Positions 15,485 through 29,908 of a stretch of 50,862 nt of DNA are shown piece after piece. The first letter of the stretch is position 1, and each line of letters starts with the position of its first letter. Below the pieces are notes generated by a model. It made no database searches, was not told where the DNA came from, and saw only the letters and a program-made list of their open reading frames with translations. Made by a program: the position numbers and the translations under genes. Source of the stretch: Prevotella sp. (GTDB lineage: Bacteria > Bacteroidota > Bacteroidia > Bacteroidales > Bacteroidaceae); assembly GCA_017557185.1 (NCBI GenBank), contig JAFZAP010000082.1, forward strand, positions 1 through 50,862, written 5' to 3'.

Positions 15485-16258
15485 CTATTGCTTCTCCATC
15501 AGCATACCTTCACCGGCATCGATGCGCTTGCGCTTCATGTCGAGGTGGCGTTTTGCAAGTTCGCCGTCGCCGAAGTCACAATAGAGCGTACCTTGTCTAT
15601 AGTAGAACGTACCGCGACTGATTTCGCCTCCCGACTCTTCAGCAATCTTGTTACCGTGAATGGTGATCGTAATCACACCATAGTCGGTCTCCACACGCCA
15701 CGCTCCTTCGAGCCAGTCGGGAATAGGCTCCGGGTGAATCTCGACGAACTCATCGACATCGCGCACCACAGCCTCGTCGCCAAACTCGTTGAGCGATTCC
15801 TTCACGCCTTCCTCGAGCATCGCCTGCTTGTAGGAGCGGTCGCCGAAACAATTCCTTACGGCAAACACCAGAGCGATGAACGCGAGCAGGAAGACGATCA
15901 GGCAGTTGCGCAGACAGCCGCGCCGACTCCTCCCTTGAGGCTTTCCAGCGGGAATGGTATGCTTGATCCACTGCGACGACGCGTCGCCTTTCACAGCGTT
16001 CTCGCCCATTGGCACACCCGCTGCCGGGCGCTCGGCATACTGTTCCTCCTCCTGCGGATGAACGGCCGCCGCTCTTTCCAGGCGGTTCTCGATGTCGCCG
16101 ATCTCCTGCGCTGCCGGCGCCTGAGGAGCGAGGTCGTCGTCGGTGATGGTATGTGTGAACGGGGTTCCGCAGCGCGGACAGACGCAGGCTACCTCGGTGA
16201 TGCCGGGAGCAACCTCTGTGGCATAGCGGAAACGACATTTAGGGCATTTTACTTCCAT
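15485..16258 (-). CDS. Zinc-ribbon single-span membrane protein of the actin/tubulin cassette
   Basis: 257 aa. A zinc ribbon opens the protein (CPKC at 4-7, CPRC near 29, MJ0042-like), followed by a polar linker, a membrane helix around 118-136 (LIVFLLAFIALVFAV) and a C-terminal domain of about 110 residues with an 'EGAWRVETDYGVITITIHG' beta segment that resembles a small lipocalin-like or lipid/ligand sensor fold. The zinc ribbon should be cytoplasmic and the C-terminal domain periplasmic. The ATG lies 1 nt after the stop of the coiled-coil gene, so translation is probably coupled. I do not recognise a named family. Confidence 0.8.
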   Translation of the reverse strand: MEVKCPKCRFRYATEVAPGITEVACVCPRCGTPFTHTITDDDLAPQAPAAQEIGDIENRLERAAAVHPQEEEQYAERPAAGVPMGENAVKGDASSQWIKHTIPAGKPQGRSRRGCLRNCLIVFLLAFIALVFAVRNCFGDRSYKQAMLEEGVKESLNEFGDEAVVRDVDEFVEIHPEPIPDWLEGAWRVETDYGVITITIHGNKIAEESGGEISRGTFYYRQGTLYCDFGDGELAKRHLDMKRKRIDAGEGMLMEKQ

Positions 16259-16259
16259 A

Positions 16260-16943
16260 TCATTCGAATCTTACAACTGCCTTGCGGACCACCCTCCAAG
16301 CCCCGCCCTCGCGGGTGGCTGTGCCCTCCTCTTCGGTAATGATGTGACGGGGCTGCATATAGGTGTTTCCGCTGACCTTACACGCGGGTTTCACAAACGT
16401 CGAGACACTGATCATAGCCGTTGCGATAGCGTCAGGCGTGTCGAGCAGGATGAACGTGCCGTTCAGGCCGTCGCTGGTGGTGAGCTGATAGACGCTCTTA
16501 CCGATCTGCTCGCGCTCCGAAGCCTGCAGGAACAAGCCGTCGGGCGTGGGAGCAGGGAGGTAGTAGACGCTGGACGTGCGCACATTGACCACAGTGCCAC
16601 CTACGACAGGTTCGCCGAAGGGTGCGGGGTCGCAGTTGATGCCGACGGGCTCGTCGTCCTCCATCATGCCGAAGGAAACGGTAACATGTGGGTCAATGGG
16701 TTGGTCGTCGCGCGAGTCAGCGGGCTGGTCGACGGGCTGGTCGACAGGCGGTGTCGCGGTGGCGTCGTCCATCTGCGCCGATGCGGCCTTGTTGCGCCGC
16801 GTGACGAATTCCTCCTCCAAGTCGCGGAGGCGTGCGTCGAGGCGGCGACACTTGCGCTCGAGGTGCTCGAGTCGCTGGAACAGTTCCTTCAGGTCCTGGG
16901 GAGAGAAGGCGTCGTTGTCACTCTTACTATTGAATAGTCCCAT
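16260..16943 (-). CDS. Coiled-coil protein of the actin/tubulin cassette, unknown function
   Basis: 227 aa from ATG 16943 (MGLFNSKSDNDAF). An earlier in-frame start at 17093 would overlap the actin-like gene by 120 nt and give a low-complexity extension, so I reject it. Residues ~12-50 are a charged heptad coiled coil (LKELFQRLEHLERKCRRLDA). A polar Asp/Gln-rich linker (DQPVDQPADSRDDQPIDPH) follows, then a beta-rich C-terminal domain (about 105-227). There is no signal peptide or membrane helix. It lies 28 nt after the actin-like gene and is tightly coupled to the zinc-ribbon gene. It may be an adaptor between the two; I know no matching family. Confidence 0.8.
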   Translation of the reverse strand: MGLFNSKSDNDAFSPQDLKELFQRLEHLERKCRRLDARLRDLEEEFVTRRNKAASAQMDDATATPPVDQPVDQPADSRDDQPIDPHVTVSFGMMEDDEPVGINCDPAPFGEPVVGGTVVNVRTSSVYYLPAPTPDGLFLQASEREQIGKSVYQLTTSDGLNGTFILLDTPDAIATAMISVSTFVKPACKVSGNTYMQPRHIITEEEGTATREGGAWRVVRKAVVRFE

Positions 16944-16971
16944 TATTGATTGAGATTGGTTCAGAATGGTT

Positions 16972-19900
16972 CTACATGTTCTCGATGAGGTTGTCGCGAA
17001 TGCTGCCGATGACGGGATAGAAGAACACGGCGTCCTCGATAGGATCGCTGCCGTTCTTGTCGTCGGCATTCTTGTTGACGAAGTTCCAACCATTGAGCAG
17101 ATGGTGCTCGAGGTCCTTGTTCACGAGCTCGCGGAAGCGCACCAGCGACTTGTTATCGACCAGGAAGCGGTCGGTGACGTGTATCTCGTCGCAGAGCTTG
17201 CAGAAGAACTCGTTATACTCACGCACGGCTTCCACAATCTGCTGATGGATGTCGGTCGAGGTCATATCGTCGTAGGTGAGCTTCTCCTTCGCGATCATCG
17301 AGTAGTTATACTTCAGCGGCGTGTCGAAGTCGTCGAGCAGCTTGTTCAGCTTATCCACACTCTCACAGCCCTTGTCGTCGCGCACCTGCATCAGGGCACC
17401 GCGACAGGTGATCTGCTTCGGCTCCTTGCGCTCCATCACAACCGAGAATCCGTCGACGTCGTATTTCTCACCATAGACGCGCTCGAAGACGGCCTGCGTC
17501 AGTAAGTCGAGGTCGCGGGTGGTGCCCACGATGTCGAGAACCTTCGAACCCGTTCCGCTGAACATTAGCGAGCGGGGCTTCGCCAGCTGGCGCTGCTTCA
17601 TCATGCGAGCCACGTAATAGACCAGCGTCACATAGAAATAGATGAAGATGAGCTTGCGCTGCGGGTCTTCGTTCAGGCGCATGTTGTAGCTGAACACATC
17701 GTTTCCGCCCACCACCTTGTTGTTCTGCACCGAGAAGAGGAACGCATTGATGTCCTCACTCTTGCGCTTCGAGGTGATGTCGTCGAGAATGCCGTTCAAC
17801 TCGCCGTAGCGCTCGTCGTCGCCGTCGAAGAGGCGCTTGAAGTAATCCACATATTTCACCAGCATCGGATTGCTGTCGCCGTGAGGAACCTCCGAGAAGC
17901 CGTCGCCGAACAGCACGTTGGCTGCGAAGCGGAACGACGTGAGGATGACGGGCTGCTGGGCGTTGCTCTCGAAGACCACTACGTCCGACGAGCCGCCGCC
18001 GATGTCGATGCTTGCGACGTTCGAAGCCGACCCGCGGAACTTGCTCGACGACTTGTAGAAATAGTAGGGAGCCACCGACTCCGGCATCTGTATCAGGTTC
18101 TGGTCGTTGGCGCTGATGCCAAACACCTCCTTGAACGTCTTCTCCCACATCTCGCCCATCTTGTGGATGTTACCCACCTTCATAGCCAGCGGGTAGAACC
18201 AAATGAGGCGTGTCTTCGTGATGTCGCCGTTCTCGAGCAGCACCTTCGTGCGCATGAGCTGGGCGAGCTCGGTGAGATAGGCCTTCACACGCTTCGATGT
18301 AGCCATCTCGGTCGACCACTTCAGGTTCGGCACGATGCGGTTTCCATAACCGATACTCTCCTTCTCGTAGATGAAGGGAACGTTGGCGTCGGCCAGCGCG
18401 AGGATGGCATCCACGTTCTCGGCATCCAAGCGCTCAGCCTCGCTGAGCACCGTGCGCTGCGGGAAGCCGTAGTCCTCGCCGATGGTCTTCGGTAGGAACT
18501 CCTGCTTCAGAATCACGTCGTAGAGTATCTGCTCGCCGTTGTAGAGCGTAGCCAGCAGACGCTGCGTCGATGCGGAGTTGAGCTGCAGCGGACACGGCAT
18601 ATCGCTACCCTTCATGCACTCCAGATGGGTGTTCGTCGTACCGAAGTCCACCGAGAACGTGAAGGCGTCGTGACCCGGGATATGCGATGCCCAGCGCGGA
18701 CAGATCATACCCTCGGCAGCCTGGTTGCCGCGGTCGTCGGTCAGCGTGACGGTGATATAGTCGAAGTCGTCCGACAGCTTGTAGTATTGCGAACCCACGC
18801 GCTTCTCCGACTTCAGGCTACGTTCGCGAACAACGACGCTGTCGCCGGTGAGCTGGCGCTGGAAGCCGTTCTTGAAGAACGACAGCGAGAGCCCGTAGTT
18901 CTGCAGCATGCCCAACGCGCGGTCCACGAGCTGTATGGAGTACTGATTGGCCTGCGGAGTGCGCACGAAGGGGAAGATGCTCAGCGCGAAAGGCACCGTG
19001 AGGAAGTAGCCGCGGTTGTTGGCCTGGTCGTAGCGCAGGTCGTTGGTGTGGGCGGCCACGTAGTTTCGCTCCAGCGTGATGTATTTTCCTTGTTTCTGTA
19101 CGGGCACGCGCAGCACCACGCGCACCGTCTCGGTGGCGCCGTTCTGCGTGTGTATGAGCTCGAACTTCGGCTTCCCCGCGATGGTGCCCCACAGGTCGCT
19201 GGCATTGAAATACTTGAAGAACAGCGGCTTCAGCGGCAGCACGAAGTCGCAGTCGTCGGTATCGCGCGAGCCAACCGAGAGGTTTCCGTCGAAGAAGCAG
19301 TCGCGGTCGAGCGTGTAGTCGAGCTTGATGAGCGTCGGCTGGAAGAAGTCGTCGTCGGTGAGCCAGGGATACTCGTGGCTCGTGGCAGGCAGCACGCGCT
19401 TCTCAGGCGGCAGCTGGTAGTCCTCGGGAGTGATGACGGTGGCATCGGTCCAGGGCGACGTGATGTATTTGAACGGGTCGGTCTGCGGAGCATTCAGGTG
19501 GTTCTGCAGCACCAGCGGCAGCGGCGCACCGCAGTCGTCGCGCGAGGGAACAATCATGAAGTCGCTCTCCTGGATGGCCTTCTGCACATCCTCGGCGCGA
19601 GCCTGATAGAACGGAATGCCCAGCGCCTGGATGCCCTCGTCCATCTTCGTGAACGTGGTGTCGAGGAATGTCTTCGCCCGCTCGATGTTCTCGTAGTCGT
19701 AGGCGGCGGGATTGCCCACCTCCTTCAGAATCTCGTTATGCAGCGCCGGCGGCAGCAGCGGCAACGCGGTGATGAGGTAGCTGTTCACCTCGCCGCAGCA
19801 CTTCTTCAGCTCAGGATAGGCGGTGAAGAGTGCGTAGATATATTTCACGAACTTCTGGTCGCGCGCATAGAGCGGACGCCAGAAGTCGAACAGGTTCACG

Positions 19901-20445
19901 TTCTGCTCCACAGGAATCGGGAAGCGGCCCGGGCGCGCGTTCGGAGTGGCCATGAAGAGGGTGACCGGCGACGTCGATCCCACCACCTGATTGCCGTAGA
20001 CGAGGAAGTAGAGGCGGTCCATACGGTCGAAGTTGAACGCTTCCTTGTCCTGGGCGAGGAACATCTCGATGGTCTCGCCGAGCAGCTTGTGCTGCCCCGA
20101 GTCCTTCAGCATCTGCAGCTGTGTGTCGCGGTTCCACTCCACGATGCGCAGCACATTGCGCAGCTCGGAGTAGTTGAAGAACAGCTGCGCCACGTCGAGG
20201 GCGTTGGCAACCAACTTCTCGTCCATCGCCTCACCCTGCAGGTTGGCGTGCATAGCGAGTCGCTTGAAGGCGTTCTTCACGAGGTCCATCTGTGCAAACG
20301 GCGACGGAATAGCCGTGCGCGGCTGCTGCGAGAGTCCGCCGTTCGGGTCCTCGATCATCTCGATTTCGTCGGCATTATACTGACTGGTCAGCGGTATCCA
20401 TCCCTCGCCGGCGGTCTTGTTGTTGTAGGATAATATCTTGCTCAT
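16972..20445 (-). CDS. Very large actin/Hsp70-fold (ASKHA) ATPase
   Basis: 1157 aa, soluble. The C-terminal half shows the three canonical nucleotide motifs of the actin/Hsp70/sugar-kinase fold in order: phosphate-1 FSVDFGTTNTHLE (~605-617), phosphate-2 ASIDIGGGSSDVVVFES (~812-828) and an adenosine-type motif LMFSGTGSKVLDIVG (~962-976). The first ~600 residues form a domain I cannot assign. No signal peptide or membrane helix is visible. The size and N-terminal extension rule out MreB, FtsA and DnaK; proteins annotated as SrfB-like are the nearest idea, held loosely. It lies 95 nt after the tubulin-like gene and 28 nt before the coiled-coil gene. Confidence 0.85.
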   Translation of the reverse strand: MSKILSYNNKTAGEGWIPLTSQYNADEIEMIEDPNGGLSQQPRTAIPSPFAQMDLVKNAFKRLAMHANLQGEAMDEKLVANALDVAQLFFNYSELRNVLRIVEWNRDTQLQMLKDSGQHKLLGETIEMFLAQDKEAFNFDRMDRLYFLVYGNQVVGSTSPVTLFMATPNARPGRFPIPVEQNVNLFDFWRPLYARDQKFVKYIYALFTAYPELKKCCGEVNSYLITALPLLPPALHNEILKEVGNPAAYDYENIERAKTFLDTTFTKMDEGIQALGIPFYQARAEDVQKAIQESDFMIVPSRDDCGAPLPLVLQNHLNAPQTDPFKYITSPWTDATVITPEDYQLPPEKRVLPATSHEYPWLTDDDFFQPTLIKLDYTLDRDCFFDGNLSVGSRDTDDCDFVLPLKPLFFKYFNASDLWGTIAGKPKFELIHTQNGATETVRVVLRVPVQKQGKYITLERNYVAAHTNDLRYDQANNRGYFLTVPFALSIFPFVRTPQANQYSIQLVDRALGMLQNYGLSLSFFKNGFQRQLTGDSVVVRERSLKSEKRVGSQYYKLSDDFDYITVTLTDDRGNQAAEGMICPRWASHIPGHDAFTFSVDFGTTNTHLECMKGSDMPCPLQLNSASTQRLLATLYNGEQILYDVILKQEFLPKTIGEDYGFPQRTVLSEAERLDAENVDAILALADANVPFIYEKESIGYGNRIVPNLKWSTEMATSKRVKAYLTELAQLMRTKVLLENGDITKTRLIWFYPLAMKVGNIHKMGEMWEKTFKEVFGISANDQNLIQMPESVAPYYFYKSSSKFRGSASNVASIDIGGGSSDVVVFESNAQQPVILTSFRFAANVLFGDGFSEVPHGDSNPMLVKYVDYFKRLFDGDDERYGELNGILDDITSKRKSEDINAFLFSVQNNKVVGGNDVFSYNMRLNEDPQRKLIFIYFYVTLVYYVARMMKQRQLAKPRSLMFSGTGSKVLDIVGTTRDLDLLTQAVFERVYGEKYDVDGFSVVMERKEPKQITCRGALMQVRDDKGCESVDKLNKLLDDFDTPLKYNYSMIAKEKLTYDDMTSTDIHQQIVEAVREYNEFFCKLCDEIHVTDRFLVDNKSLVRFRELVNKDLEHHLLNGWNFVNKNADDKNGSDPIEDAVFFYPVIGSIRDNLIENM

Positions 20446-20449
20446 ACTT

Positions 20450-20480
20450 TAGCCCCCTAAAATAGGGGGTTGGGGGTCTT
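20450..20480. repeat. Dispersed palindromic element between tubulin-like and actin-like genes
   Basis: TAGCCCCCTAAAATAGGGGG then TTGGGGGTCTT, just upstream of the actin-like start. Next to it lie CACTGTT and CGCGCTT short repeats (20500-20540). Confidence 0.65.
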
Positions 20481-20540
20481 ATGATTATTCTGTTCTATTA
20501 TTTTTCACTGTTCACTGTTCACTTCGCGCTTCGCGCGGTA

Positions 20541-22085
20541 TCACACCACTCCCACAAACTTCTCATCAATCAGCTTGTCGAGGGTTTCATCCAGCAGGTC
20601 GAGGAGCTTCAGCGCCGTGCGGTCCGTACCGTACTTCTGCGTCTTCATAGCCTGCTGCGACGCCTTGTTCAGAGCCGCGAGCACCGACTTGTAGTCGATG
20701 GTCGACTTCAGGAAGCCGGTCTTCGGAGCGATGTCGTTCAGACAGTCCGACAGCTTGTCTGTGGTGAGGTTGAACGGCACGAAGCTACGCTGGTTCTGCC
20801 GCAGCTCGCGCAGCCACTGGCGGTAGCTCACGAAGAAGTCGCTGGTCAGCGTGTTGTAGAACGACGTCGACAGGAATGCATTCGACAGCTCCGGCTTGTC
20901 CTGCGTGTAGCCGCGACCGATGTCCTGGCGCAGCTGGTTGGTGATATACATATACGCCAGGTGGAACTTCACCAGCTGGCGGTTCACGAGCGCACGTGTC
21001 TGCACACCGAAGTCCTTCAGCGTGAGCGTCTGCTTGTCGTAGGCAAGGCCGAACTCCTTGTAGATCGGGTTCTGGGCATTGCCGTCGGCGGTCTGCAGCT
21101 GGTCGTCGGGGATGCCGAGGAAGTCGAGCACCGACAGCGCACCCACATACTCCACGAGGTGTGCATCATTGCGCTGGCCGTTGCCGCCCGGGTCGTTGAA
21201 ATACGGGTTCGAGGGCACCTGGTCGCCGAGATAGTAGCACGCGTTCACCTTCGACATGTTCAGGTCCACACCGTTCTGGCGCAGACCGGTCAGGTTGTCG
21301 TGATAATAGTATAGAGCCGACTTCGTCTTCGAGATGAAGTCGCCGCGCGAGATCGGACTGTTGTCGTCCTGCTGCACGTTGAAGTACGGCAGCACCGTGA
21401 GCGCGCCGATGCGGGCGTCGCGCAGGTCGCCGCGGTTGTTGATCTGCGAGTTGAGGGCGGCATTGCGGATATTCTTCACGATGATCGGATAGCCCGCAGC
21501 ACCCGTCCCTCCGAAGATACTCGACACCACGAACACGCGGTCGGTCTTCTGGAACACATTCGAGAACTGCTTGAACTCCTCCGAGTCTTTGAACTGGTTC
21601 AGCGCCACGCTGCCGATGTTTGGCGAGCCCACGAAGCCGATGTCCATCTTCGTGTTCAGCTGGTAGTCAGAGAACATCATCGAGCACAGTGCCTGGTTAC
21701 CCGTGTCGAGCGTCGAATAGTTGATGAAGTCCTGGAACTTCTTCGACTCGATGGCGCCCATGTTGAAGAGGAACGTGTCGCTGAGCTGCGAGCCGTTCGG
21801 CAGGATGTCGGCGAGACTCGAGATCTTCGTCGAGAAGAAGCCCCGACGCACGTCCACCTGCTCACCGTAGAGCGCGCGGCGTATCTGCTTATACCAGCGC
21901 ATCAGGTTATCCGTGCGCTTCAAGTCTTCGTTGGCCTTATGCGGGTCCACAACGATAGGAATGATTTCGAGCGGCATCGGCTGGCCCTGCTCATCGACAG
22001 GATGCACTCCTGCCGCACATTGCATGATCAGCGGTCGCATCACTCGCGAACCCGTACCGCCTACAAGGAATAGAAATAATCTCAT
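20541..22085 (-). CDS. Tubulin-like protein
   Basis: 514 aa, soluble. The N-terminus has a beta strand and glycine loop (FLFLVGGTGSRVMRPL), a second strand ends in IPIVVDPH, and residues ~187-200 read FVVSSIFGGTGAAGYP. That GGTGxxG loop matches the tubulin/FtsZ phosphate-binding signature, and its spacing from the N-terminus fits the Tubulin_2-like families that NCBI names 'tubulin-like doman-containing'. It differs from FtsZ in length and in the absence of the FtsZ C-terminal tail. It may bind GTP and polymerise, or act as a switch. It lies between the four-helix membrane protein gene and the actin-like gene. The ATG is preceded by heptamer repeats. Confidence 0.82.
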   Translation of the reverse strand: MRLFLFLVGGTGSRVMRPLIMQCAAGVHPVDEQGQPMPLEIIPIVVDPHKANEDLKRTDNLMRWYKQIRRALYGEQVDVRRGFFSTKISSLADILPNGSQLSDTFLFNMGAIESKKFQDFINYSTLDTGNQALCSMMFSDYQLNTKMDIGFVGSPNIGSVALNQFKDSEEFKQFSNVFQKTDRVFVVSSIFGGTGAAGYPIIVKNIRNAALNSQINNRGDLRDARIGALTVLPYFNVQQDDNSPISRGDFISKTKSALYYYHDNLTGLRQNGVDLNMSKVNACYYLGDQVPSNPYFNDPGGNGQRNDAHLVEYVGALSVLDFLGIPDDQLQTADGNAQNPIYKEFGLAYDKQTLTLKDFGVQTRALVNRQLVKFHLAYMYITNQLRQDIGRGYTQDKPELSNAFLSTSFYNTLTSDFFVSYRQWLRELRQNQRSFVPFNLTTDKLSDCLNDIAPKTGFLKSTIDYKSVLAALNKASQQAMKTQKYGTDRTALKLLDLLDETLDKLIDEKFVGVV

Positions 22086-22189
22086 TTATAGTGTATAGTT
22101 TACAGTTTACAGTTGATAGTTCATGATTACTATTACTGATGGTTGATAGGACGTTGACAAAGTTAACAGTTTATAGTGAAAAACCAACC

Positions 22190-22216
22190 GTAGGGGCAGA
22201 CCCCCGTGTCTGTCCG
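22190..22216. repeat. GTAGGGGCAGAC-type palindrome
   Basis: GTAGGGGCAGACCCCCGTGT then CTGTCCG: an imperfect palindrome of a kind that I have seen dispersed in many Bacteroidetes genomes. It lies in the 203-bp gap before the tubulin-like gene and is flanked by TCAACTA heptamers (22257-22291) and TTTACAG heptamers (22095-22120). Confidence 0.6.
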
Positions 22217-22288
22217 AAAACAGACAACCAGCTACCCAACCCGTCGAGGGTAATCACAAACTATCAACTCTCAACTATCAACTATCAA

Positions 22289-22732
22289 CTATTCGGGTAT
22301 CGGCGTATGCCGGCAGTTCGTGCTCCACCACCGCATCGCGAACGAGGCCACCGTGAACAGCACAGCCTCCACAGCGAGGTCGATCACGCAGAAGCTGCCC
22401 AGCTGACCTGTGAAGTCGTAGCCCTCAGCGGTGAACGCGTTGTTGCAAATCACGAACGAGATCACGGGAGCAGCCACAGCCGCCACACCCAGCACGATGA
22501 GCCAGTGGTACCAGCGCGAGAAGCTCACGGAGTTGATCACGTAGTAGAACACAGCCGCCAAGCCCCACGCCACGAGCACCGTCACCAGCGCCACCACGAA
22601 GTAGAGGTTCTGGTTGTACATCTCGTTCGAGAACTGGCGCTCAAAGTACAGCGCTTCAAAGATCTTTGTGTTCAACACCAGGAACAGCAGCGTAATCACC
22701 GCCCCTGCAATCAGCAAAATTGAATTCTTCAT
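22289..22732 (-). CDS. Four-helix inner-membrane protein of the cassette
   Basis: 147 aa with four predicted membrane helices at about 4-24, 44-68, 74-97 and 108-134, and short polar loops. The second loop carries several Tyr and Asn residues (ERQFSNEMYNQNLYF). It has no recognised family signature. It lies upstream of the tubulin-like gene on the same strand and downstream of the BspA-like gene. It could be a membrane anchor for the cassette; that is inference from position only. Confidence 0.78.
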   Translation of the reverse strand: MKNSILLIAGAVITLLFLVLNTKIFEALYFERQFSNEMYNQNLYFVVALVTVLVAWGLAAVFYYVINSVSFSRWYHWLIVLGVAAVAAPVISFVICNNAFTAEGYDFTGQLGSFCVIDLAVEAVLFTVASFAMRWWSTNCRHTPIPE

Positions 22733-22754
22733 TGTCTATCTTTATCTACATATA

Positions 22755-24902
22755 TTACTTATTTAATATCGTTTTTCTCACAGTCCCATCTGACTTCTTT
22801 ACAATTGTCAAACCTTTATGGAAAGTATTTATCATTCTTCCATCAGACATATACATTTGCTGTTCTTTAAATTCTTCAGCTATGATAGAAATATGATCGG
22901 GGTCTTCAGATTCGATGCTTACAATTTTTCCAAAGTTTTTCCAAGGAGCAGTATCTTGATATAATGTCAACGCTGACTCAGGTACATGTAACACGACTGA
23001 CGCTATTGGTACATCCTGAAATGCATTTTGGTCGCAATAAGGAACTTTTGTGGCATAGCAATATACATCCTTTAAAGCTTGGCAATTGCCAAATGTGTAA
23101 TAATAAATGGAACTGAGACCAGAACCCAACGATATCTCCTGCAATGCACTACAATTAGAAAATGCCGACTGCCCAATGTCCCACATTCCATCAGGAAAAA
23201 CAATTGATGTAAGATTGCTACACCCCCAGAAGGCACCATCACTAATCGACACAACCGTTTCTGGTATATTCAGAGAGTCTAACGAAACGCAACCAGAGAA
23301 AGCATAACTACTAATCCTGCTCAACTCTTCAGGTAAAGAAACTTCCTTCAAACTGCTACAATTACCAAACGTGAAACTTTTTATGACTCTCACAGCTTCT
23401 GGAATATCAACCGACAGCAGAGACTTGCAATCATAGAAGGCCCTGTCTTCAATAACAGTCACACTGTTTGGAATATCGATGTTTTCCATACTTTCGCATT
23501 CTCGGCAGAGTTCATAAGGAATGGTCTCCACGCCTTGAGGAATTGTCAAAGACTTTAATGCTCTGCATTCTGCGAAAGCAGACTTTCCAATAAGTTGCAG
23601 TTCCTCGTTCAAAAGTATACGCTCAAGTTTAGTGCAAGTCATGAATGCATATTCTCCAATCTCTCTTAGAGATGATGGCAGTACTATTTCCGATAAACTT
23701 TCACAGAAAGAAAAAGCTCCTGAGCCAATCTTTTCCAGCGTATTGTTTAATGTCAGACTCTTCATAGAATAACAGGCCGAAAAAGCCGACTCTCCTATTT
23801 CCGTCAGTCCATCTGGTATGACAACTTCTTTTAATTCCCAACACATGGAAAAAGCCGATTGCCCTATGGTCCTAATACTTTCGGGAAACGCCAAACTCTG
23901 TAAGGCTCCACAATGAGAGAAGGCGTACGAATCAATCGTGGTCAAACCTTCAGAAAAATAAACAGCGCGAAGACTATTACATCCCCTGAATGCGTTTGTT
24001 GGAATGGTTTTCAACCCCTCACCAAAAGCCACCTCCTCCAATGTTGACTCAGAGAAGATACTTGAGCCTATAGAGGTAACCGAGTTAGGAAGTACCAGTT
24101 TTTTCACTCTGCCAATCCAATAGAAGGCTTCCTCTCCTATTGTTTCCAAACCCTCATGTAATCCGATATTGCTCAAGAAAGAGCACAACATAAACGCTCG
24201 GTCGCCAATAGCAGATACGCTCGAAGGGATATCTATAGTGCCTAAAGAACCGCAACGCAAAAATGCATCTTCCTCTATAGTTTTCAAACCTTCAGGAAGT
24301 TTAACGGATTCCAATTCACTACATTTACAAAATGTTCCCTTAGCGATTTTCTTAATTCCCTTGCCTATCAACACTTCAAGTAAATTCGAACAATATGAAA
24401 AAGCATAATCTCTGATTTGCGAAACCGAATCAGGGATTTCAACCTTCATCAGATTTTCGCATTCAGTGAATGCATATACTCCGATGGTCCTCAAATTCTT
24501 CCCAAACGAAACTTTCTGCAATTTTTCACAATGTCTGAATGCATATCCGCCAATACTTAACACACTATCCGGAATGATGATTTCCTTCAGAGCCGTACAG
24601 TTTTGAAATGACGAACTGCCAATTGTCTTTACCCGCTTACCTATTTTGACAGATTTCAACTCACTACAATCGTAAAACGCTTCATCGCCAATTGATGTGA
24701 CATAATAAGTATTGGCTCCTACTACGACAGAATCTGGAATCGTAACAGAACCAACATATGGAGAATCGCCCGCTATCACCTCCGCTGTCTGTCTTGCGGC
24801 ATCGAGGTAATAGTTGATTCCCTCATGATAAATATCCTGTGCCCACAACGATTGGACACAGATGAAGCTAAGAACAAAACATATAATACTATATTTTATC
24901 AT
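22755..24902 (-). CDS. BspA-like leucine-rich-repeat surface protein
   Basis: 715 aa with an N-terminal signal peptide ending at SLWAQ (~residue 21). About two dozen 23-residue LRR_5 repeats of the form IPDSVxxIGxxAFxxCxxLxx (TpLRR/BspA type) fill residues ~55-630. A C-terminal tail (YMSDGRMINTFHKGLTIVKK) resembles the degenerate T9SS-like tail common in Prevotella. BspA-like proteins act in adhesion to host or other bacteria. The DNA is visibly AT-rich compared with neighbours, with AAA, TTT, AAT codons prevailing, so it looks like a recent arrival that splits the vWA gene from the other cassette genes. Confidence 0.92.
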   Translation of the reverse strand: MIKYSIICFVLSFICVQSLWAQDIYHEGINYYLDAARQTAEVIAGDSPYVGSVTIPDSVVVGANTYYVTSIGDEAFYDCSELKSVKIGKRVKTIGSSSFQNCTALKEIIIPDSVLSIGGYAFRHCEKLQKVSFGKNLRTIGVYAFTECENLMKVEIPDSVSQIRDYAFSYCSNLLEVLIGKGIKKIAKGTFCKCSELESVKLPEGLKTIEEDAFLRCGSLGTIDIPSSVSAIGDRAFMLCSFLSNIGLHEGLETIGEEAFYWIGRVKKLVLPNSVTSIGSSIFSESTLEEVAFGEGLKTIPTNAFRGCNSLRAVYFSEGLTTIDSYAFSHCGALQSLAFPESIRTIGQSAFSMCWELKEVVIPDGLTEIGESAFSACYSMKSLTLNNTLEKIGSGAFSFCESLSEIVLPSSLREIGEYAFMTCTKLERILLNEELQLIGKSAFAECRALKSLTIPQGVETIPYELCRECESMENIDIPNSVTVIEDRAFYDCKSLLSVDIPEAVRVIKSFTFGNCSSLKEVSLPEELSRISSYAFSGCVSLDSLNIPETVVSISDGAFWGCSNLTSIVFPDGMWDIGQSAFSNCSALQEISLGSGLSSIYYYTFGNCQALKDVYCYATKVPYCDQNAFQDVPIASVVLHVPESALTLYQDTAPWKNFGKIVSIESEDPDHISIIAEEFKEQQMYMSDGRMINTFHKGLTIVKKSDGTVRKTILNK

Positions 24903-24944
24903 AACTCATTTCTCAATTGGCTTGACTATCCATACCCCCCTCCC

Positions 24945-24966
24945 CTCGGCTTTGCCGCTTGCGTAG
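24945..24966. repeat. Dispersed repeat CTCGGCTTTGCCGCTTGCGTAG
   Basis: An inverted copy of this repeat, with one mismatch, is at 48863-48885. The core CGGCTTTGCCG is palindromic. It lies between the vWA gene and the BspA-like gene, next to TCAACTA heptamers (24981-25013). Confidence 0.6.
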
Positions 24967-25010
24967 CATCGCGGAGCAAGAACTCTCAACTATCAACTCT
25001 CAACTATCAA

Positions 25011-26513
25011 CTACCTATCGAATCCCAGCTCGATCACGTAGTAGTAGGGCTCTCCCTTCGAATGCTTCCGGTAGCTGTCGTAGATGCCCTGCAGCAGGTA
25101 CTTCAGACCGAACGTCGTATTCGCGAAACCTGCGCCGCCCACGCTCGAGTCGTCGTCGCTCGACGAAGCCTCCACCCATTCCGGCAGCCGGTTCATCAGC
25201 TTGATCCTCACGTTCTGGCGGTGCTTGATGCCCTCGCTCTCCAGGATGAACAGGTGCGTTGCCTTGCCCAGGTGCTTGCGCTCCGCAGGCGACACATCCT
25301 TCTGCTCCACCGGCCGGATCTCCTTGATCACCAGCGGGTCGTCGCTCTCCACGCGGTAGTTGTCGATGTCCAGCAGATACTGCTCGTCGATGAGCATTCC
25401 GCTCAGGTCCACCGCCAGCACCAGCCGCAGGTCACCGCTGTTGCGGTCCACCTCCACATTCTCGATATACCGTATCTGATCACCCTGGCCGTGCACCGTG
25501 CGGAAGCGGCCGCGAATCTGGTCGCTCTCCAGCAGCAGCGAGTAGTAGGGCTTATAGACGTCGTCGGTCTCGAAGAGATACATATCCTCATAGCCGCGCA
25601 GCTCGCTGAAACGGCTGAAGGGCACATATGCCTCGTCGCGCGTCAGGCGGGCGATGTTCTGGTTCGAGCCCACCACCACGATGTAGTAAGGCCGGCGACC
25701 GTTATACTGCACTCCACCGGCGGCGTTATACGGGTAGTAGGGACCGTTGTACGAACCCTGCATCTTCACCACCAGCAGACCTTTCTCCTTCACCTGGCTC
25801 TTGAACACCGCATTCGTCATGCCCTGCGCCTCCGCAAACACCTTCTGCGCGTTCACGCCTGCCATCTGCTTCGTCGAGTAGATCATGTCCGTCACCAGTA
25901 TCGACAGCTCGTCGGGTCCCGTCTTGTCGAGCAGCTGCTGGAAGATCGCTGCGAAGTCCGTCGACGAGGCGTCGCCGATACCCTTCGTAGCCTCGAAGAT
26001 GTTCGAGTCGCCGATGAACTGCGAGAAACCCTTCGGATAGGCGTTGATCTCCGAGTTCACCACGTAGATGTGGTTATCGTCGCCACCGCCCGGCAGCTTG
26101 TTCAGCATGCCCACGATGGCAGCCTTAAACGAGCCGTCGCCACCGGCGGCATCATACGGCACCATCGACCCCGAGCGCTCCAGGTAGAAGTTCACGCCCA
26201 GCGTGCGGCGACCCGCCTGGATGTCGATCTTCTTCGGCGGACGGCGGCCCTCGAAGAAGTCACCGATGTACTCCTTCACAGCGTCGATGTCCAGCTCCCC
26301 GTCCTTATAGAAGTCCTTGAAGTGCGCCTTCTGGCCGTCGAGGAACTCCGCAATCTGTTCCCACTCCGAAGCATCAATCACCTCGTCCTTGTCGGCAACG
26401 TCGAGCAGCAGGCGGTTCAGCGCCTTCTTCTCACCACCGCCGCAACTGGCGAGCAGCACACCAGCGAGGAGTGCCATCAGCAGCGTTTTCACTCTATTTC
26501 TCTTCATTTCCAT
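25011..26513 (-). CDS. vWA-fold lipoprotein of the cassette
   Basis: 500 aa from ATG 26513; ATG 26507 is an alternative, while an upstream start at 26582 would bury the signal. The signal peptide ends in a lipobox LLAGVLLASC, so the protein is a lipoprotein. A von Willebrand A-type fold spans about residues 105-300: NFYLERSGSMV is a MIDAS-like ExSxS (Glu replaces the usual Asp), followed by STDFAAIF and ILVTDMIYS. The C-terminal ~200 residues (an FETDDVYKPYYSLL segment and onward) are unassigned. vWA domains bind metal and partner proteins. It is the first gene of the cassette on the minus strand, exported to the envelope. Confidence 0.85.
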   Translation of the reverse strand: MEMKRNRVKTLLMALLAGVLLASCGGGEKKALNRLLLDVADKDEVIDASEWEQIAEFLDGQKAHFKDFYKDGELDIDAVKEYIGDFFEGRRPPKKIDIQAGRRTLGVNFYLERSGSMVPYDAAGGDGSFKAAIVGMLNKLPGGGDDNHIYVVNSEINAYPKGFSQFIGDSNIFEATKGIGDASSTDFAAIFQQLLDKTGPDELSILVTDMIYSTKQMAGVNAQKVFAEAQGMTNAVFKSQVKEKGLLVVKMQGSYNGPYYPYNAAGGVQYNGRRPYYIVVVGSNQNIARLTRDEAYVPFSRFSELRGYEDMYLFETDDVYKPYYSLLLESDQIRGRFRTVHGQGDQIRYIENVEVDRNSGDLRLVLAVDLSGMLIDEQYLLDIDNYRVESDDPLVIKEIRPVEQKDVSPAERKHLGKATHLFILESEGIKHRQNVRIKLMNRLPEWVEASSSDDDSSVGGAGFANTTFGLKYLLQGIYDSYRKHSKGEPYYYVIELGFDR

Positions 26514-29876: not shown

Positions 29877-29908
29877 TTTGGTATTTCGCTCACTTATTTG
29901 TAACTTTG
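29877..29908 (+). promoter_or_regulatory. Promoter of the CotH gene
   Basis: -33 TTTG (29877-29880) and -7 TAACTTTG (29901-29908) with 20 nt between them, a full consensus. The ATG at 29914 is only 6 nt past the -7 box, so the mRNA should be leaderless or nearly so. Confidence 0.8.

Follow-up and report, generated by a model that had tools for sequence, protein, structure and literature searches.

A conserved gene module pairing a tubulin-fold with a giant actin-fold protein in Prevotella looks like a poorly known envelope machine

The closest described system was predicted in 2010, when Makarova and Koonin defined the FtsZl1 family and proposed a membrane-remodelling system of vWA, FtsZl1, GTPase and OmpA proteins (PMC2875224, in the portion accessible to us); FtsZl1 is now named Tubulin_2, according to an excerpt of PMC9871819. 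As described in that portion of PMC2875224, FtsZl1 is patchily distributed, typically occurs beside ordinary FtsZ, includes a Bacteroides caccae sequence (its Figure 1), and in most members carries a long coiled-coil and helical C-terminal extension. The same portion mentions no actin-like partner of FtsZl1 and treats actins only generally, and the excerpts of PMC5898192 and PMC2651865 add nothing on such a partner. A second cluster is found in Synechocystis, where excerpts of PMC9880817 describe sll0445 (Tubulin_2), sll0446 (FtsA domain) and sll0447 (DivIC domain). On the evidence of these excerpts, only PMC2875224 (tubulin with vWA) and PMC9880817 (tubulin with actin) are relevant to a module of tubulin, actin and vWA proteins. 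Here we analyzed such a module in the window, that is, the entire 50,862-base contig JAFZAP010000082.1 of a Prevotella sp. genome (GCA_017557185.1, 89% complete), which encodes a tubulin-fold protein (TUB), a giant actin-fold protein (ACT), a lipoprotein (VWA), a small membrane protein (TM4), a coiled-coil protein (CC) and a zinc-ribbon protein (ZR).

In the sampled genomes TUB and ACT form an inseparable pair, with TM4 and the lipoprotein normally just upstream and CC just downstream. We know of no well-studied bacterial precedent outside division for tubulin and actin homologues that are never found apart. In the window, open reading frame (ORF) calls place the genes on the minus strand, listed here in the order of transcription.

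25011-26513, minus strand: VWA, a lipoprotein ORF of 500 aa with a signal peptide, a lipobox Cys and an E-x-S-x-S site resembling a metal-ion-dependent adhesion site (MIDAS)
22755-24902, minus strand: LRR, a BspA-type leucine-rich-repeat exported protein of 715 aa (PF13306, E=1.9e-215)
22289-22732, minus strand: TM4, a membrane protein of 147 aa with four hydrophobic segments
20541-22085, minus strand: TUB, a tubulin/FtsZ-fold protein of 514 aa with GGTG (T1) and FGGTGA (T4) loops, the latter within FGGTGAAG
16972-20445, minus strand: ACT, 1157 aa, with the ASKHA motifs DFGTTN, DIGGGSSD and SGTG
16260-16943, minus strand: CC, a coiled-coil protein of 227 aa with a conserved C-terminal domain
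15485-16258, minus strand: ZR, 257 aa, with an N-terminal four-Cys zinc ribbon, one membrane helix and a C-terminal domain

The first-pass annotation had named six of these genes, and all six were confirmed with their common strand, order and motifs, including FGGTGAAG, the three ASKHA motifs and the 1-nt spacing of CC and ZR. It had overlooked the LRR gene, which lies inside the operon on the same strand, 22 nt upstream of TM4. Of 80 related loci, 77 display VWA together with TM4, and not one of these 77 has an LRR gene in the interval, so the window's copy is probably a recent insertion, not a conserved operon member.

To count as a strong hit, a match had to reach E<=5e-12 for TUB or E<=1e-20 for ACT. 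At these thresholds both proteins were found in the same 12 of 198 genomes of the order sample, the same 19 of 151 of the family sample and the same 6 of 247 of the phylum sample. Altogether 35 different genomes have the pair, and in no genome did just one of the two give a strong hit. The TUB and ACT genes adjoin each other on a single contig in 10/12, 19/19 and 6/6 of these genomes, respectively, a linkage stronger than the first-pass annotation, which asked for a conserved-synteny search of many genomes, had proposed. Two weak TUB hits, in a 431-aa frame of G481 (E 1.8e-5) and a 1622-aa frame of G412 (E 4.4e-8), were excluded from the counts; both genomes are without ACT at E<=1e-20. A further 103 genomes of the order sample with only weak ACT matches (E 1.2e-7 to 9.4e-4) were not counted as ACT either; nearly all of these matches, in frames of 121-519 aa, lie over the phosphate-2 region, and they are probably FtsA, MreB and similar proteins.

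The gene order was followed in 80 loci from a TUB scan, which are the best 80 of at least 556 candidates and biased to close relatives; the redundancy is such that 95 TUB sequences fall into 34 clusters at 75%. These loci span Prevotellaceae, Muribaculaceae, Cryomorpha, Mucilaginibacter, Spirosoma, Catalimonadaceae and others, and include the named strains Hoylesella pleuritidis, H. nanceiensis, Prevotella koreensis, Leyella lascolaii and Cryomorpha ignava. The order VWA-TM4-TUB-ACT-CC-ZR on one strand is conserved (VWA in 77, TM4 in 78, ACT in 79, CC in 75 and ZR in 63 of the 80), some of the missing genes reflecting contig ends, and the median gaps along it are 37, 59, 39, 18 and 94 nt. The distance matrices of ACT and TUB correlate at r=0.976 (32 loci), those of VWA and TUB at 0.916 and of TM4 and TUB at 0.751, values obtained without species-tree control. 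In L026 and L028, which belong to a distant group, TUB is preceded by a lipoprotein-like protein carrying a MIDAS-like motif and by a hydrophobic protein of 128-142 aa, as judged by eye; the VWA and TM4 profiles do not reach these two upstream proteins. Linkage of the six-gene set is thus far above chance. That the genes act together, as the first-pass annotation had supposed, is strongly supported because of this conserved order, the matching presence and absence of TUB and ACT in three samples, and the occurrence of TUB-ACT with similar partners in cyanobacterial plasmids.

A structure search with the predicted model confirmed the tubulin-type GTPase fold of TUB, for which the VIA tables also list tubulin-type entries. 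All 121 TUB rows keep the GG(T/S)G and FGGTG loops, a count that is partly circular for the 80 scan loci because the scan patterns themselves contain these motifs. The conserved pocket suggests that TUB binds GTP. The window protein matches Pfam Tubulin at E 0.0019 and Tubulin_2 at E 0.0028, both below cut-off (17.4 bits against the 27 bits of Tubulin_2, PF13809). Among its relatives, L148 (40.8 bits), L023 (33.6 bits) and genome G081 pass this cut-off, and L112 (25.5), L109 (24), L149 (20.7) and L028 (13.2 bits) stay below it. In the profile-profile comparison that the first-pass annotation had suggested, Tubulin_2 reached 74% and FtsZ 9%. TUB relatives have a median length of 508 aa, ranging from 391 (at a contig end) to 574 aa, and the long C-terminal extension of most FtsZl1 proteins is absent from the window TUB. 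Like the FtsZl1-vWA operons, the module encodes a tubulin-superfamily protein together with vWA-like and membrane/OmpA-type proteins; unlike FtsZl1, TUB is short, mostly under the PF13809 cut-off, and paired with a giant actin-fold protein. Canonical Tubulin_2 loci were also tried as members of the same system and rejected: five long Tubulin_2 proteins (L124-L128, 798-1059 aa) lie in order-sample genomes without TUB, and five stretches of 6-20 kb around them gave no hit at E<=0.05 to the profiles of TUB, ACT, VWA, TM4, CC or ZR.

In the predicted model of ACT, residues ~592-1035 match the actin/ASKHA fold, preceded by a separate large region (residues ~48-590). With its phosphate-1, phosphate-2 and adenosine motifs and its actin-type fold, ACT is a second nucleotide-type protein, so that both folds claimed at the outset were confirmed on predicted models; ATP binding would follow from the conserved pocket. 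The structural matches include the filament formers BeeR, MreB and ParM as well as Hsp70, and actin/Hsp70-type entries are listed for ACT in the VIA tables. SrfB, which we take to be an ASKHA protein, resembles ACT in scale (~1000 aa). Unlike a SrfB member, ACT has no Pfam SrfB (PF07520) match at E<=1, and membership was rejected, although a profile comparison gave 87% over 98 columns; SrfB itself turned up in a single genome of the 247 in the phylum sample, where 32 kb of inspected sequence contained no TUB. The module shares with the FtsZ-FtsA division pair the combination of a tubulin-fold with an actin-fold protein, and differs from it in being accessory and outside the division cluster, in the size of ACT (~1150 aa) and in its lipoprotein and TM4 partners. 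Two unusual ACT loci were seen: L066:9822-16236 holds two consecutive ACT-family ORFs, an apparent tandem duplication, and L198:9254-10126 (G449, a single-contig genome) has an ACT frame of only 291 aa beside TUB, perhaps a decaying or split copy.

The remaining partners carry few names, and no curated Pfam cut-off was reached by the window's ACT, CC, TM4, ZR or lipoprotein, nor did NCBIfam or PADLOC give a name above cut-off for its module proteins. VWA conserves an E-x-S-x-S...T...D pattern, with Glu in place of the first Asp of the MIDAS signature D-x-S-x-S...T...D. The lipobox Cys and the ExSxS motif are invariant in an alignment of 36; in a wider set of 107, the first residue of the MIDAS-like site is E in 102 and D in 5, the serines are kept in 107/107 and 106/107, and a later D in 107/107. 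The first-pass designation as a vWA lipoprotein rests on motifs: the lipoprotein stands in the operon in 77/80 loci, yet none of 36 family members scanned matched Pfam vWA (PF00092) at E<=0.1, and a profile comparison with three vWA proteins of the same genome was weak (probability 10%, E 0.003; negative control 0.1%, E 0.56). TM4, with its four hydrophobic segments, stands upstream of TUB in 78/80 loci. CC has a conserved C-terminal domain (alignment of 30), and many relatives add an N-terminal hydrophobic segment and extension. In ZR, Cys 5, 8, 27 and 30 are invariant in an alignment of 22, and one hydrophobic segment is followed by a presumed periplasmic C-terminal domain. Of the six families first proposed, ZR is mostly confined to the window's broad clade (63/80 loci; also L021).

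Some relatives carry two extra genes after ACT or CC. One encodes a MotA-like protein of ~450-600 aa, which combines membrane helices of the MotA/ExbB/TolQ kind with a long helical tail; the other encodes a MotB-like protein of ~200-265 aa, which has a helix resembling that of MotB and matches OmpA weakly, below cut-off. The comparison with Zorya and MotAB stators draws on excerpts of PMC11890865 and PMC12505986. In PADLOC, all three MotB-like proteins scanned matched ZorB1 (E 2.3e-15 to 2.7e-12), and of six MotA-like proteins one matched ZorA2 at 1.7e-11, three were weak ZorA matches (2e-4 to 0.03) and two had none. The MotB-like gene is present in 15/120 loci, most of which are close to the window, and in 7 of 18 other genomes of the family sample; 13 of 15 MotB-like proteins retain the presumed channel Asp. 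Unlike Zorya, the window's operon has no ZorA/ZorB motor, and neither do most close relatives. Zorya is not known to include tubulin-, actin- or vWA-like partners. In a quick TUB tree built from 44 rows, the clade of the window (Prevotellaceae/Muribaculaceae type, 10 rows, support 100) is without the motor and is nested beside the motor-bearing Cryomorpha and Mucilaginibacter (support 92). Because of this nesting, loss of the motor in the window's clade is the simpler reading, within the limits set on the tree by long branches and cut contigs.

Relatives also occur in Cyanobacteria. When 72,556 plasmid records were searched in translation, relatives of TUB turned up in 6, of which 5 are cyanobacterial, and relatives of ACT in 5, of which 4 are cyanobacterial. 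Plasmids of Gloeothece PCC 7822 and Picosynechococcus PCC 8807 encode a hydrophobic protein (155-156 aa), TUB (E 3e-57 and 2e-52, respectively), ACT directly downstream (4e-35 and 2e-41) and further proteins. The hydrophobic protein is called TM4 from its position, size and hydrophobic look. Two proteins downstream of ACT match CC in Picosynechococcus (~1e-8); in Gloeothece, where the CC profile does not reach the third protein, a lipoprotein with a canonical D-x-S-x-S site adjoins the operon in divergent orientation (E 3e-7). The best Pfam name of both TUB proteins is Tubulin_2 (Gloeothece 40.8 bits, above cut-off; Picosynechococcus 20.7, below) and of both ACT proteins FtsA, below cut-off; DivIC is the best name of the Gloeothece third protein (E 0.004, below cut-off) and is weaker in Picosynechococcus.

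Going by Pfam names and gene order, the Synechocystis cluster sll0443-0449 is probably the chromosomal cyanobacterial version of the module, with a tubulin-like, an actin-like and a third protein in the same order. Excerpts of the literature describe impaired phototaxis of the sll0445-0447 mutants and an association with pilus assembly proteins (PMC9880817), a single transcription unit sll0443-sll0449 with a putative CRP site (PMC2633013), deregulation of Sll0445 and Sll0446 in a comFB mutant with a pilus phenotype (PMC12313861), and ~4- to 6-fold changes of sll0443-0445 and sll0448 in a lexA-mutant comparison (PMC4759255). The published roles, in phototaxis and photosystem function, differ in not being transferable as such to Bacteroidota. 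The claim of an undescribed system accordingly held in part: the module lies near the 2010 FtsZl1/vWA prediction and its probable cyanobacterial relative has a phenotype, and the pairing with an actin is absent from the accessible portion of PMC2875224.

Taking these features into account, we lean towards the reading that the genes encode a single accessory machine at the cell envelope, in which a nucleotide-switched scaffold is linked to the lipoprotein. By analogy with FtsZ and FtsA, TUB and ACT may form a cytoplasmic nucleotide-switched scaffold, or a filament-plus-adaptor pair, on the inner membrane. TM4, CC and ZR would connect this scaffold across the membrane to the lipoprotein outside, which may bind a ligand or partner via its metal site. 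The span from cytoplasm through inner membrane to exported lipoprotein, which the first-pass annotation had emphasized, agrees with the topology predicted for the proteins and with the presence of ion-motor genes in some relatives; there, a MotAB/ZorAB-like ion motor would complete the complex, and the window's clade would run without it. The output, the least certain step, might consist in assembling, positioning or operating a surface structure or an export complex; the sole published phenotype found is the loss of pilus-linked phototaxis in the probable Synechocystis counterpart. From nucleotide binding through a physical complex and an FtsZ-FtsA-like scaffold to envelope coupling and a surface-related output, these steps are what we infer from the genes. 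A bolder version is tentative and on the whole doubtful: a single envelope machine would combine three sources of energy, namely a GTPase of tubulin fold, an ATPase of actin fold and, in the fuller version, a peptidoglycan-anchored MotAB/ZorAB-type motor that acts on, or is steered by, the co-assembling scaffold, with an external ligand read via the lipoprotein, an ancient second FtsZ-FtsA-like pair across Bacteroidota and Cyanobacteria for surface dynamics, not division.

Several observations weigh against the envelope-machine reading. TUB and ACT, which are not far apart in most genomes, lie on different contigs in G035 and G036. The module is not essential, because its distribution is patchy (3 of 10 own-genus genomes among those listed). 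The vWA assignment is at motif level only. Elsewhere in the window's 89%-complete genome no MotA-like match was found, and the only MotB-like matches are a 288-aa frame at E 8e-4 (C-terminal part) and another at E 0.45. In Cyanobacteria, the TM4 profile matched nothing in the two plasmid loci, and equating Sll0445-0447 with TUB-ACT-CC relies on domain names and order, not sequence. The phototaxis phenotype is not directly transferable because Bacteroidota, to our knowledge, generally lack type IV pili. Finally, FtsZl1 proteins are described as without recognisable FtsZ filament elements (PMC2875224, same portion).

That last point also speaks for the strongest competitor, in which TUB and ACT do not polymerise, ACT being an Hsp70-type assembly factor and TUB a GTP switch that together build a surface complex. 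The Hsp70 matches of the ACT fold and the large extra region ahead of its actin domain agree with this, as may a lack of filament contacts in FtsZl1 proteins (PMC2875224, as excerpted), but the structural matches also include filament formers and nothing separates this proposal from the filament reading; we rate it as rather unlikely. A divergent copy of the predicted FtsZl1/vWA membrane-remodelling or vesicle system is less likely still. TUB is distantly related to Tubulin_2 (L148, L023 and G081 pass; profile 74%), and both systems have vWA-like, OmpA-like and membrane partners (PMC2875224, accessible portion), but the five long Tubulin_2 proteins lie in genomes without TUB, the module profiles find nothing around them, and the actin-like partner goes unmentioned in that portion. 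Plasmid or DNA segregation of the TubZ/ParM type seems very improbable. Tubulin and actin relatives act in plasmid partition and module copies occur on cyanobacterial plasmids, but the module also lies on megabase contigs (L058 2.7 Mb, G574 4.2 Mb, G449 3.0 Mb) and its conserved partners are a lipoprotein and membrane proteins. Chance neighbourhood, for which one could cite the 2 of 12 order genomes with TUB and ACT apart, is refuted by the same-genome occurrence in three samples and the conserved order, and has next to no probability.

A Zorya-related anti-phage defence, in which the lipoprotein and ion motor would act as a sensor at the envelope and signal to a tubulin/actin effector in the cytoplasm, has a small probability, about that of the FtsZl1 copy. 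It keeps this place because of the patchy distribution, the ZorAB-like genes (MotB-like partner similar to ZorB1 in 3/3 scanned, MotA-like clearly to ZorA2 in 1/6) and one gene of the staphylococcal nuclease (SNase) family next to the module in L107 (PF00565, E 7e-26); plasmid-borne copies and two copies on IMG/VR contigs point the same way. Against it, PADLOC gave no match at E<=1 for the seven window proteins, no recurrent nuclease gene was noticed among the partly annotated neighbours of the module, the motor is missing from the window and from most of its close relatives, and the Synechocystis phenotype concerns motility. The flanks show no excess of defence families either: 110 flank proteins matched 61 PADLOC families and 107 controls matched 78 (E<=1e-15; first 25 listed of each). 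This is a weak test, which compared the flanks in 11 family genomes with 20 stretches (9 from the same genomes, 11 from order genomes carrying the module) and scanned 110/176 flank and 107/114 control ORFs. All these readings overlap with each other and with that of the envelope machine, so their probabilities do not sum to one.

Further genes were seen around the module. A compact six-gene operon, VWA-TM4-TUB-ACT-MotA-MotB, is found on two IMG/VR contigs of 103.6 and 58.3 kb (L193:6299-14905 and L194:6303-14905), which are perhaps a mobile element or a misclassified bacterial contig; a search of 50,697 phage records for a phage origin gave no match. A retropepsin-like aspartic-protease lipoprotein follows the module in several genera, at L107:18379-18906, L109:18328-18822, L058:15782-16336 and L063:16134-16670, with PF13975 in all three scanned (L107, L109, L058), and L112 has an HtrA-like trypsin lipoprotein at this position, by eye. 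The SNase-family gene (L107:18903-19424) comes immediately after the aspartic protease gene, where the Cryomorpha cluster ends, and a PP2C-type phosphatase-like gene, by eye, directly follows ACT at L028:8274-9056. In the window, the gene after ZR is presumably tryptophanyl-tRNA-synthetase-like. A pattern scan of the window found six Bacteroides-type promoter patterns TTTG-N19..23-TANNTTTG (one at 29877-29908) against 0.24 expected, none of them upstream of the operon. Sigma-70-like sites (18 against 7.9 in shuffles) and terminator-like sites (7 against 11.4, that is, no excess) were not used as evidence.

Taken together, the proposal of a nucleotide-driven, linked envelope module stands, and the module belongs near the FtsZl1/vWA prediction, known but barely studied; it looks like a poorly known envelope machine, not part of cell division. 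As a defined gene set in two phyla with named strains, it makes a joint role of tubulin and actin homologues directly testable. It links TUB and ACT proteins to MotAB/ZorAB motors, and it may explain an orphan cyanobacterial motility cluster.

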